DNA from: an uncultured Gammaproteobacteria bacterium
GTDB taxonomy: Bacteria > Pseudomonadota > Gammaproteobacteria > Pseudomonadales > Pseudohongiellaceae
Length of the DNA stretch: 64,000 nucleotides
Reading direction: 5' to 3'
Assembly (NCBI GenBank): GCA_913060975.1
Contig: CAJXVC010000001.1
Location: 372,001-436,000 of the forward strand
The notes below the pieces were generated by a model, which was not told where the DNA came from, did not search any database, and saw nothing but the letters and a program-made list of their open reading frames with translations. Below are positions 16,262 through 32,344 of this stretch, piece by piece. The stretch's first letter is position 1. Every line of letters begins with the position of its first letter. The position numbers were made by a program, and so were the translations under genes.

Positions 16262-16380
16262 CCTCTGTCCAGACTCTCTATCCAGTCTCTCAATCCAGAC
16301 TCTCTATCCAGTCTCTCATCCAGGTCCTCATCCAGACTCTCAATCCAATCTCTCAATCAGGTCCCGCTTTCAATCCAGTC
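16262..16380. repeat. 13-bp degenerate tandem array after the DUF1285 gene
   Basis: Units start at 16262, 16275, 16288, 16301 and 16314, an 11-bp variant is at 16327, and further 13-bp units are at 16338 and 16351, with a longer 17-bp unit ending at 16380. The plus-strand consensus is about TCTCWATCCAGWC. Units 2 and 4 are identical (TCTCTATCCAGTC). The array ends five bases from the stop codon of the adjacent minus-strand gene, so it starts just after translation ends. Between it and the etfB promoter (about 16109-16261) I see nothing recognisable. Confidence 0.82.
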
Positions 16381-27903: not shown

Positions 27904-28230
27904 ATGAACACCCTCATGCCTGAAGTATCCGCCTGGTACCAGGACGTAGTCAGCGGAAGCTTGTTCGAAGTTGTAGCGATCGACGAAGCCAGCGGGACCA
28001 TCGAATTCCAGATGATCGATGGTGAAGTTGGTGAATATGACAACAGCACCTGGCGCCACCTGTACCTCACCCCCGCCGAAGCCCCCGAGGATTGGCGCAG
28101 CCCCTACGAAATCGGCCATGAAGACGGCGCCTACAATGATCAAACCATGGTGCCAGAGAACTTCTCCGGGGCCCTGTCAGAATACGAACCCGATTTGCTC
28201 GACTACGGCGACGATTTCCAGGTTCTCTAA
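27904..28230 (+). CDS. DUF6763 family small protein
   Basis: A 108-residue acidic protein with no signal peptide or membrane helix. Conserved-looking features are WYQDVVSGSLFEVVAID, FQMIDGEVGEYDNSTWRHL, then EAPEDWRSPYEI and YNDQTMVPENFSGALSEYEPD. I recognise this pattern from small uncharacterised gammaproteobacterial proteins annotated as DUF6763, often found next to lexA. The first half could form a compact beta-barrel like Tudor/SH3 folds; that is a guess. A good ribosome-binding site (AGGAG) precedes the ATG. It lies 246 bp upstream of lexA on the same strand, but lexA has its own SOS promoter. No function is known. Confidence 0.72.
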   Translation: MNTLMPEVSAWYQDVVSGSLFEVVAIDEASGTIEFQMIDGEVGEYDNSTWRHLYLTPAEAPEDWRSPYEIGHEDGAYNDQTMVPENFSGALSEYEPDLLDYGDDFQVL

Positions 28231-28417
28231 GCCAGCAACTGCACCCCCCGCACTCCGTCCTGGTTCTCCTGCGTCACCACTGCGCGCATCGACGGACCAA
28301 CTCCCGGCTACCGCAGTCCGGGTATGATCTGAGATCCCCCGCTACACCTCCAGTACTTACGATCTGGCGCCAACATTTTGGCCAATCAGCCACTTTATAT
28401 TGCCCGCTAAAGAAATC

Positions 28418-28450
28418 TTGAGATCATCAGATAACTGTATATAATTACAG
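28418..28450 (+). promoter_or_regulatory. lexA promoter with overlapping LexA (SOS) box
   Basis: The 16-bp sequence CTGTATATAATTACAG (28435-28450) is a near-perfect LexA box of the CTG-N10-CAG type. The -35 TTGAGA (28418-28423) and a consensus -10 TATAAT (28440-28445) are 16 bp apart, and the -10 lies wholly inside the box. LexA binding should therefore block its own promoter directly. The expected start site is near 28452, with a 25-nt leader. Confidence 0.93.
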
Positions 28451-28476
28451 TTATTCGCTCCTCAGAGGTTCAGGAC

Positions 28477-29085
28477 ATGCTCAAACTCACATCTCGACAG
28501 GAACAGATTCTCGACTACGTGCGGGATTATCTGCAGGAAACCGGTTTCCCACCCACCCGCTCGGAAATAGCCAAGGAAATGGGCTTTAAATCCCCGAATG
28601 CGGCCGAGGAGCACTTGCGCGCGCTAGCCCGCAAAGGCGCAATCGAGATGTTACCCGGTACTTCACGGGGTATCCGCCTGCCTATCAATGAACAACTCGG
28701 CTTGCCCATCATTGGTCAGGTGGCCGCAGGCAGCCCAATTCTTGCCGAGGAGTCCATTGCCGACTACTGCGATATTCCGGCCGATATGTTCTCGCCGTCT
28801 GCTGACTATCTGCTTACCGTCAAAGGTACCAGTATGATTGATGTTGGCATCTATGAAGACGACCTGTTGGCAGTCCACAAAACCGACCGCGCCAATAATG
28901 GGGATATCGTGGTCGCCAGAGTCGATGACGAAGTCACCGTGAAACGTCTGGAAACTTGTCGCAGCAAGTTCCGCGTTAATTTGATTGCCGAGAATCCCGA
29001 TTTTGCCCCTATTGAAGTTGATATGCGCGAGAGAGCATTCGCCATCGAAGGCATTAGCGTGGGTGTCATCCGACGAAATTTGTAA
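28477..29085 (+). CDS. lexA: SOS repressor LexA
   Basis: A 202-residue repressor and self-cleaving protease of the same length as E. coli LexA. The winged helix-turn-helix is at about 1-65 ([21 protein letters not shown] recognition region). The cleavage site is A84-G85, and the catalytic serine and lysine are S119 (in KGTSM) and K156, all with E. coli numbering. RecA filaments on single-stranded DNA trigger its cleavage and release the SOS regulon. The gene is autoregulated by the LexA box upstream. AGAGG about 8 nt before ATG 28477 is a suitable ribosome-binding site. In Pseudomonas a sulA-like gene follows lexA; none is found here. An 18-bp tandem array starts four bases after the stop. 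Confidence 0.97.
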
Positions 29086-29089
29086 TTTA

Positions 29090-29179
29090 GAAACAGATAG
29101 TTCTTTCGAAATAGATAGTTCTTTCGAAATAGATAGTTCTTTAGAAATAGACAGTCCTTTCGAAATAGACAGTCCTTTC
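29090..29179. repeat. Five-copy 18-bp tandem array after lexA
   Basis: Five head-to-tail 18-bp units begin at 29090, 29108, 29126, 29144 and 29162. Units differ at only one to three positions; the last two are identical (GAAATAGACAGTCCTTTC). Because 18 is a multiple of three, the first three units each place a TAG in frame with lexA. The array starts four bases after the lexA stop codon and is the best-preserved array in the window. Confidence 0.93.
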
Positions 29180-29338
29180 GAGGGCTACAAATTTTTTCTG
29201 ATTAAGTGCCATATGACACTGTAAAGAGAGTTTTATGGCCTCCTTATCACCGATTTACCGGTTTTTCGCCTCACAACTTCCTAACACCTGTCTTGTGTCT
29301 CCATTCACGCTGCTACACAGCACGTCTGACACAACAAT

Positions 29339-29361
29339 CTATCCACAGATATTTATCCACA
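29339..29361 (+). promoter_or_regulatory. Pair of DnaA-box sequences
   Basis: TTATCCACA at 29353-29361 is a perfect DnaA box; CTATCCACA at 29339-29347 matches at eight of nine positions. They are in the same orientation with starts 14 bp apart. No dnaA, dnaN or AT-rich unwinding region is nearby, so this is not an origin. DnaA titration or transcriptional control are possibilities. Confidence 0.45.
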
Positions 29362-29528
29362 GCACGCTTGTTTAGCGAACTGTGTACTCGATCAGCTGTA
29401 TCGTATTGGTAAAGTAAGTGCGGCAATGGGTGCTATAAGTGGCATGCAAAAGCATGGAAAGGAATCCACTAATTTGTGCTGACAGTGACTCACACAACGC
29501 TGGGTTGAGAAGTTATGGAAGCAGACTA

Positions 29529-29564
29529 GCCGGCTCTCACTAATTATTAACAATGAGAACCGGC
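29529..29564. terminator. Stem-loop between convergent lexA and topA
   Basis: GCCGG-C-TCTCA (29529-29539) pairs with TGAGA-A-CCGGC (29554-29564), giving an 11-position stem with one C/A mismatch and a 14-nt loop. It lies between convergent genes, but neither flank has a T-run, so a rho-independent terminator is doubtful. It may instead protect 3' ends. Confidence 0.4.
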
Positions 29565-29632
29565 CTAAGTCGTCAGGTGGGCTGGCTTGTAACTATTACT
29601 ATCTGACCGGGTCAGATTGAGCAGCCAGGTAA

Positions 29633-32344
29633 TTATTCTGCAGCTTTTTTACTGGCGGCTTTCTTGGCTACTTTCTTTTTCGCGGCTTTTTTCTTGACCG
29701 TTTTCTTCTTGGCTTTTTTCTCTGGCAAAGTGATTTCCCACTTGCCGTCACGGTAGAACGCTTTCCAGCCGGTGGCCTTCTTGTCTATCTCGGTTTGAAC
29801 GTACTGCTCTTTGGTCTTGCGACTAAAGCGCACCAGAGTCTTGTTTCCCTGGTGATCTTCTGTAGGAGCGGTTAACAGGTAATCGTACTTGGGGTCGATC
29901 TCATCTTTATGCGGTAGCAATTCAACCAGATATGGCGCACGGGTTTCACGATTTTTTGGAAACTGACTTGCCGCGAGGAACATGCCAGAGGCACCATCAC
30001 GAAGCACGTAATGATCTTCAACCGTTTCACACTCCAGTTCTGGCATATCCACCGGGTCCATCTTCGGTGGCGCAGCTTCGCCGTTACGCAGCAGCTTTCT
30101 GGTGTTTTTGCAATCTTCACTGCTACAGCCAAAGTATTTGCCAAAGCGACCAGTCTTGAGCTGCATATCGGCGCCACATTTATCACATTCGATAACGGGG
30201 CCATCGTAGCCGCGAATCTTGAATTCGCCATGTTCGACATCGTAGCCTGCACAATCCGGATTTCTGCCGCAGACATGCAATTTACGCTTCTCATCAATGA
30301 GGTAGGCATCCATGGCCGTGTTGCAGATAGCACAACGATGCTTTTTGCGTAGCAGGATATTCTCCTGCTCTTCGGCTTCTTCAGCAGTATCAGTACGAAT
30401 TGCTTCTTCGCCAGGCGTCAGGTTGATCGTACTCTTGCAGCGTTCTTTGGGCGGCAAGGAGTAGCCTGAACAGCCCAGGAAAACCCCTGTGGATGCCGTG
30501 CGAATCTGCATGTGGCGGCCGCACTTCGGGCACGGAATATCGGTATCAGTTGGATCGTTCGTGCGCATGCCACCATCTTCGGCTTCCGCCTTGGCAAGCT
30601 CGGAAGTAAAGCTGGCATAAAAATCATTGAGCAATTTCTTCCAGTCGGTATCACCGGCTGCCACTTCGTCCAGTGAATCCTCCATGCGCGCAGTGAAATC
30701 ATAGTCCATCAGCTCGCCGAAACTCTCCTGGAGTCGTTCTGCAACAATATCGCCCATTTTCAATGCATAAAAGCGCTTGCTCTCGACTTTGACGTAGCCG
30801 CGATCCTGAATCGTGGAAATAATAGAGGCGTAAGTTGAGGGCCGCCCTATTTCACGCTTTTCGAGTTCCTTGACGAGGCTGGCCTCGGTATAGCGTGCCG
30901 GAGGCTTGGTAAAGTTCTGAAAAGGTTCCAGCTTGGCAAGATTGAGAGCTTCACCGACTTCAACATCGGGCAGCACAACATCTTCTTCTTTACTTGGCAT
31001 GACTTTCAGATAGCCATCGAACTGCATGATGCGGCCTTTGATACGCAGCTCATATTTGTCCGCAGCAACGGTAATGGTACTGCTCAGATACTTCGATGGC
31101 GGCATCTGGCACGCCACGAAGAATTGCCAGATGAGTTGATACAGACGCACGGCATCGTTTTCCATGCCTTGCAGCTGATCAGCCCGAACCCGGACATTCG
31201 AAGGACGAATCGCTTCGTGAGCTTCTTGCGCGCCTTCTTTTGAACTGTAGTAAGCCGGTTTTTCTGGCAGATACTTATCGCCGAAATTCTTTTCGATAAA
31301 CTCGCGACACTGGGCAATTGAGTCATTGCTCAAGTGCGTGGAGTCGGTACGCATGTAGGTGATGTAACCTGCTTCATACAGGCGCTGCGCCATGAGCATG
31401 GTCTTCTTCACCCCGTAACCCAGCCGCGTACTGGCCGCTTGCTGCAGAGTCGACGTGATCAGCGGAGGACGGGCTTTTGACGAGGTCGGCCGGTCTTCGC
31501 GTTTGAGAACCTTGTACTCCGCCTTTTCAAGAATCACCAGGGCGGCATCAGTTTCGTCTTTGCTATTGGGACGAAAATTATTGCCGTCGTCTTTTAATAC
31601 CTGGCACCGCAGCTTGTTGTCCTGAGCGGTTTCGAGATTGGCATAGACTTCCCAATACTCTTCCGGAATGAACGCGCGAATCTCCTGCTCACGTTCTACG
31701 ACAAGCCGCACGGCAACAGACTGTACACGCCCCGCTGACAGGCCGCGAGCCACTTTGGCCCAGAGCAAGGGGGAAACCATAAAGCCAACGACACGGTCGA
31801 GGAAACGGCGCGCCTGCTGAGCTTCAACGTAGCGCATGTCCAACTTGCCTGGCTCGGAGAAAGCCTCGGTGATGGCACGCTTGGTGATTTCATTAAAAAC
31901 AACTCGCTTGTAACGCTCGGGATCGCCACCAATAGATTCCTTGAGATGCCAGGCGATGGCTTCTCCTTCTCTATCCAAGTCAGTCGCGAGATAGATGTTG
32001 TCAGCGTTCTCGGCGAGTTTTTGCAGTTCGGAGACTACTTTCTCCTTGCCGGGCAGTATCTGATAGTTCGCTTTCCAGTCGTGTTCCGGGTCAATGCCCA
32101 TCCGAGCCACCAACTGTTGCTTCGCCTTCTTCTTTTTATAGGCTACTTTTTTCTCTGGATCCATTTTGCGGGTTTCGGCGGCGGCCTTGGCCCGTGCTTT
32201 CGGATCTACTTTCTTGCCACTACCACTGGTAGGCAAGTCGCGAATATGACCGACACTGGACTTAACGATGAACTCGGGTCCGAGGTATTTGTTAATAGTC
32301 TTGGCTTTGGCTGGGGACTCGACTATTACTAAAGATTTCGACAT
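29633..32344 (-). CDS. topA: DNA topoisomerase I
   Basis: A 903-residue type IA topoisomerase that relaxes negative supercoils. The N-terminal TOPRIM domain starts [16 protein letters not shown], with catalytic E9 and the later [14 protein letters not shown]. The active-site tyrosine is in [12 protein letters not shown] near residue 329. Three C-terminal zinc ribbons follow, beginning [22 protein letters not shown] and [11 protein letters not shown]. The tail is a Lys/Ala-rich stretch of about 30 residues ([16 protein letters not shown]), which resembles the nonspecific DNA-binding tails seen in other bacterial topoisomerases. Length is a little above E. coli TopA (865). It has its own strong promoter 50 bp upstream and is convergent with lexA. 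Confidence 0.96.

Follow-up and report, generated by a model that had tools for sequence, protein, structure and literature searches.

Immediately behind the lexA gene of an uncultured gammaproteobacterium of the family Pseudohongiellaceae, an 18-bp word is repeated five times, and several of its copies place a TAG codon in the reading frame of the gene. What is such an array doing at this site? A preliminary description of the locus proposed that it might insulate against readthrough, shape the end of the lexA mRNA or be a product of neutral slippage. All positions given here refer to the window, i.e. the whole stretch of 64,000 nucleotides that was analysed, and the features of the locus are collected in Table 1.

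Table 1 Features of the lexA–topA region, with positions in the window
Feature	Position	Strand	Remarks
LexA-box-like palindrome CTGTATATAATTACAG	28435..28450	+	Upstream of lexA; pattern CTGT-N8-ACAG
lexA (202 aa)	28477..29085	+	ORF; stop codon TAA at 29083-29085
Left outer arm GAAATTTGTA	29075..29084	+	Final codons of lexA plus two stop-codon bases; complementary to 29186-29195
Five full 18-bp units	29086..29175	+	Starts at 29086, 29104, 29122, 29140 and 29158
Local hairpin AGTCCT-TTCG-AGGGCT	29171..29186	+	Last unit and following sequence; terminator-like hit, T-run 5 nt off; −6.3 kcal/mol
Partial sixth unit TTTCGA	29176..29181	+	Part of the proposed hairpin loop
Right outer arm TACAAATTTT	29186..29198	+	Complementary to the tail of lexA; continues into the T-run TTTTTTC
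topA	29633..32344	-	ORF, TIGR01051; convergent with lexA

The array and its occurrence

Tandem Repeats Finder described the array as a repeat of period 18 with 5.3 copies, 92% matches and no indels, and its score of 143 was the highest of the 34 rows obtained for the window. The array lies behind lexA, as the preliminary description stated, but its bounds are 29086–29181 rather than 29090–29179, so that it begins at the base directly following the lexA stop codon. The five units are real, although the term near-identical applies to them only in part: units 2 and 3 are the same (CGA AAT AGA TAG TTC TTT), while the deviation from this sequence amounts to 2 bases in units 1 and 5 and to 3 bases in unit 4, unit 5 reading CGA AAT AGA CAG TCC TTT. 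With up to 3 mismatches allowed, the unit was found at only 5 places in the window. Shuffled sequences gave 0.02 matches on average and none of 100 reached five, which excludes chance. The array thus consists of head-to-tail copies beyond chance expectation, with a unit in the range of roughly 10–100 bp that defines bacterial minisatellites. An ORF of 79 aa which overlaps lexA runs through the array with the repeated motif FEIDSS/LEIDSP; the differences between the units alter the protein sequence that it would encode, and relatives were not found to carry the array.

The gene preceding the array was identified as lexA by the TIGR00498 equivalog model (228.8 bits, cut-off 110.95). The palindrome upstream of it follows a pattern which we take to be the LexA-box consensus, and a sigma-70-like promoter match (28418–28445, 11 of 12 in the promoter scan) overlaps this palindrome. 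The arrangement suggests ordinary autoregulation of lexA through CTGTATATAATTACAG. The CTGT-N8-ACAG pattern occurs four times in the window and nowhere within the array, and LexA binding inside the array was rejected on this ground. The array is contained in the 547-bp gap between lexA and topA. The two genes were convergent in 68 of the 72 distinct loci compared, and the remaining four loci yielded no topA within their bounds.

The array is single in its own genome. A dispersed repeat family was rejected since the genome matched the unit without mismatches only in the five units themselves, and with up to 3 mismatches it gave 21 matches in forward and reverse orientation against 35 for a reversed control pattern. 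A two-unit pattern (up to 3 mismatches) was detected in one of 84 genomes of the same genus, which was the own genome, and in none of the 83 others; the comparison comprised one genome per species, and 48 of the 84 (own included) were at least 90% complete and at most 5% contaminated. The array is therefore private to this genome and probably recent; like bacterial minisatellites in general, it is non-coding, lying between lexA and topA, and unconserved between species.

Arrays of this kind are ordinary in the intergenic DNA of the own genome, since a 456-kb sample contained 16 arrays with a score of at least 80, of which 11 were intergenic; the non-coding DNA of the sample, delimited with a crude map of ORFs, amounted to 49.4 kb. 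No array with this score was present in one shuffled copy of the sample. Samples of 200 kb from two relatives yielded two arrays in 22.8 kb and one in 11.8 kb. Another intergenic minisatellite of the window is located at 16263–16364, with 13-, 26- and 37-bp registers and a score of up to 130.

LexA-like matches were obtained in 52 of 58 genomes (own included) and in 42 of 47 further genomes of the same genus, and the best 30 matches from each of these two sets became loci; there were also 51 named loci. The closest named loci were assigned to Pseudomonadales, Gammaproteobacteria, Proteobacteria, OM182 or uncultured Pseudohongiella, and nearly all were MAGs. lexA was re-found in 121 loci, which were reduced to 72 distinct lexA ends (own included) by merging identical ends and discarding those with less than 60% identity, fewer than 100 bases downstream or an incomplete match. 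A tandem row was present in the first 100 bases from the lexA stop in 15 of the 72 ends, the own array scoring 143 and the next best 56. A literature search, which covered mostly papers outside subscription, returned no report of this array, nor of any minisatellite within the terminator of lexA.

Weak repeats were seen in some sister loci. L034 and L035 carry a weak tandem row (score 47) within the first approximately 100 bases after lexA, L036 has a weak 16–17-bp repeat in the lexA–topA gap, recognized by eye only, and L037 contains an extra 16-bp stretch in an alignment with L034, L035, L036 and L097. These 16–17-bp repeats could be an older shared array. The similarity of the lexA tail and array to the repeats of L034, L036 and L037 was not significant (reached by 61, 45 and 215 of 500 shuffles, respectively), and homology was rejected for the three loci tested.

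In-frame stop codons behind lexA

The observation that units 1–3 each carry TAG in the lexA frame, where units 4 and 5 have CAG, was confirmed from the sequence (TAG at 29098, 29116 and 29134). This row of in-frame codons behind the true stop resembles fail-safe stops. Unlike what is expected of them, however, the stops are not enriched in the frame of the gene: within 29086–29175, the lexA frame contains three, the next frame none and the third frame six (all TAG), so that the lexA frame is not the richest in stops. The proposed insulation against readthrough also fits poorly with the facts that lexA already ends with TAA and that TAG is missing in two of the five units. In 71 relatives, the mean numbers of stops per frame over 30 codons following the lexA stop were nearly equal (1.18, 1.15 and 1.25), and 50 of them possess an in-frame stop within this distance; in-frame stops after lexA are thus neither unusual nor frame-selected in this group. 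A published survey of eubacteria likewise reports no compelling evidence of selection for additional 3' stops (PMC6764699).

Duplications which include the stop codon were found behind lexA in other loci as well. In L068, the 14-bp sequence TAAAAGCTATCTGC, which includes the lexA stop, is present twice from the stop on, and the same sequence occurs once at this position in L070 and L065, which represents the unduplicated state. A 10-bp unit is repeated three times in L077, starting at its lexA stop. Since the periods of 14 and 10 are not multiples of three and the repeats leave no in-frame stop within 20 codons, duplications of this type at lexA need no frame advantage. The repeated in-frame stops of the array are probably copies of lexA's own stop codon rather than a safety device, and such copying would explain both the absence of a frame preference and the units without TAG. 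A row of in-frame stops can hence result simply from duplication, provided that the period is a multiple of three, and need not be a sign of selection.

Complementary flanks and a possible origin of the array

The array sits between complementary arms, overlooked in the preliminary description, which form 10 pairs including one G-T. Among 5000 shuffles, nine Watson–Crick pairs were obtained in 8 and 10 pairs including G-T in 50. When 87 bp (29085–29171) are removed, the lexA tail is joined to the last unit and an uninterrupted stem of 15 bp results, capped by a TTCG loop and followed by a T-run; the joined sequence of 55 nt has an energy of −21.3 kcal/mol. With the flanks joined in this way, the stable hairpin directly followed by a T-run that characterizes intrinsic (Rho-independent) terminators is present, and it overlaps the lexA stop. 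In contrast to such terminators, the real arms are separated by approximately 100 nt, and the local hairpin which remains is weak and lies 5 nt from the T-run.

A stem of at least 15 bp was produced by 2 of 3997 random placements in the window, by 9 of 5000 shuffles of both flanks and by 7 of 5000 shuffles of the left flank alone. When the own right flank was combined with the lexA ends of the relatives, 2 of 71 gave stems (11 and 12) and the rest none. The energy of the joined hairpin was matched by 509 of 3000 random placements and, when GC content was matched, by 2 of 365, one of which was the site itself. The lexA array was the only one of the 11 intergenic arrays of the own genome to show the feature; among the three arrays in relatives, one gave an 11-bp stem upon joining of the flanks. 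A loose hairpin scan of the 72 lexA ends revealed very varied hairpins and no common terminator. Its best hairpin overlapped the lexA stop in 15 of 72 ends, which means that a hairpin over this stop is not odd. In the real own sequence, the top hit of the scan was a 58-nt hairpin at 29183–29240 (−13.3 kcal/mol) with a poor T-run.

The array is most likely an ordinary private slippage minisatellite, which was probably born in the lexA terminator. According to the reconstruction, lexA would have ended with ..CGA AAT TTG TAG TCC TTT CGA GGG CTA CAA ATT TTT TC, and its last codons together with the stop would have formed the left arm of an intrinsic terminator with the 15-bp stem, the TTCG loop and the T-run. 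An 18-bp block comprising the last codons, the stop codon and the left arm, and lying between two CGA microhomologies, would have been duplicated, then duplicated again and finally altered by mutation. The TAGs of the array would be copies of the original stop codon which stand in the lexA frame only because 18 bp correspond to six codons. TAG is the most common lexA stop in the relatives (31 of 71; TAA 21, TGA 19), which would speak for a unit copied from the lexA tail and stop, as would the stop-including duplications of L068 and L077, which are independent examples. The ancestral terminator was reconstructed from one genome, as no array-free relative with the same flanks was found.

The joined 18-nt tail matches the five units at 12–14 of 18 positions, seven of its 18 bases coming from the array itself; of the 11 others, 8 match units 2 and 3 as read from the letters. 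A plain local alignment of unit and tail did not reach significance, since equally good results were obtained with 619 and 591 of 5000 random windows. Two features argue against an origin in the tail, namely the TTG of the lexA tail, for which each of the five units has AGA, and a first spacing of 15 instead of 18 bp; the reading thus requires three neighbouring substitutions and the loss of 3 bp.

Bacterial intergenic minisatellites are known as VNTR loci used in MLVA typing. The lexA array is similar to them in its short units arranged head-to-tail in few copies, its intergenic position, its restriction to one lineage and its explanation by slipped-strand mispairing. It differs from them in its start at a stop codon and in its apparent expansion within the hairpin of a terminator. 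The locus may be a small case of minisatellite birth at a gene end, from a block in which a stop codon was combined with one of the two arms of such a hairpin.

Present fold and rival explanations

In its present form, the array folds like shuffled sequences (z-score 0.03), and no Rfam match was obtained within 28200–29700 at E values up to 1; a structured RNA was rejected on the basis of these two results. The only terminator-like hit within 28300–29700 was the local hairpin with 6 pairs, compared to a mean of 1.4 hits in shuffles. In the model fold, pairing of the outer arms was at least 0.95 for eight of nine pairs and 0.8 for the outermost one if the flanks were joined. It was approximately 0.06 with five units (approximately 0.17 with other flank lengths), 0.24–0.38 with four, at most 0.08 with three, at most 0.16 with two and at most 0.32 with one, i.e. 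the modelled response to copy number was irregular. As arm pairing is low with five units and the weak local hairpin stands apart from the T-run, termination behind lexA may now be weakened, although 547 bp still separate the gene from the convergent topA. The suggestion that the array shapes the end of the lexA mRNA thus describes a possible effect, to which the apparent splitting of a terminator-like hairpin by the array gives a more concrete form.

That we are dealing with a neutral slippage array of some kind is very probable. It was found in none of the other genomes searched within the genus, such arrays are frequent in the intergenic DNA sampled from its own genome, and L068 and L077 possess other repeats which begin at the lexA stop and whose periods are not multiples of three. 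The neutral origin put forward in the preliminary description was thereby supported. We consider it likely that the minisatellite arose by slipped-strand duplication at the lexA end, the terminator origin included. A plain minisatellite, in which an intergenic 18-bp word slipped and the flanks are complementary by chance in an AT-rich region, is an unlikely alternative. The ten other sampled intergenic arrays without such a hairpin are in agreement with it, just like the similarity of unit and tail, weak by itself, the low energies, which are frequent throughout the window as long as placements are not matched for base composition, and the shuffles that reached 10 arm pairs with G-T included. 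The rarity of the 15-bp stem among the double shuffles and random placements argues against it, and the joined stem ends in a T-run right behind a gene.

A functional 3'-end element, whose array would spread the terminator arms and tune lexA readthrough towards topA by its copy number, appears improbable. The strong arm pairing in the joined fold and its change between five and four units are compatible with this idea, and so is the convergent arrangement of lexA and topA; the irregular copy-number response, which depends on the length of flank folded, the unremarkable fold and the lack of the array in the relatives examined speak against it. The stricter version, according to which gain or loss of units would switch lexA 3'-end formation and readthrough towards topA by separating the arms, is very improbable; if it were true, a part of the SOS circuit would be phase-variable. 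Fail-safe stops selected against lexA readthrough are hardly credible in view of the frame counts given above, in spite of the three in-frame TAGs after TAA.

Two further observations concern the lexA–topA gap and its border. The stretch 29339–29361 contains CTATCCACA as well as a perfect TTATCCACA 14 bases further on, which we take to be DnaA-box-like; the DnaA-box pattern was found in none of 71 relatives within the first 450 bases, at most, after lexA, and TTWTCCACA has three matches in the window, which is near chance. The end of topA (29633–29726), which encodes a lysine- and alanine-rich tail, consists of 12–15-bp repeats, and several relatives carry similar repeats behind lexA at the likely position of their topA end.
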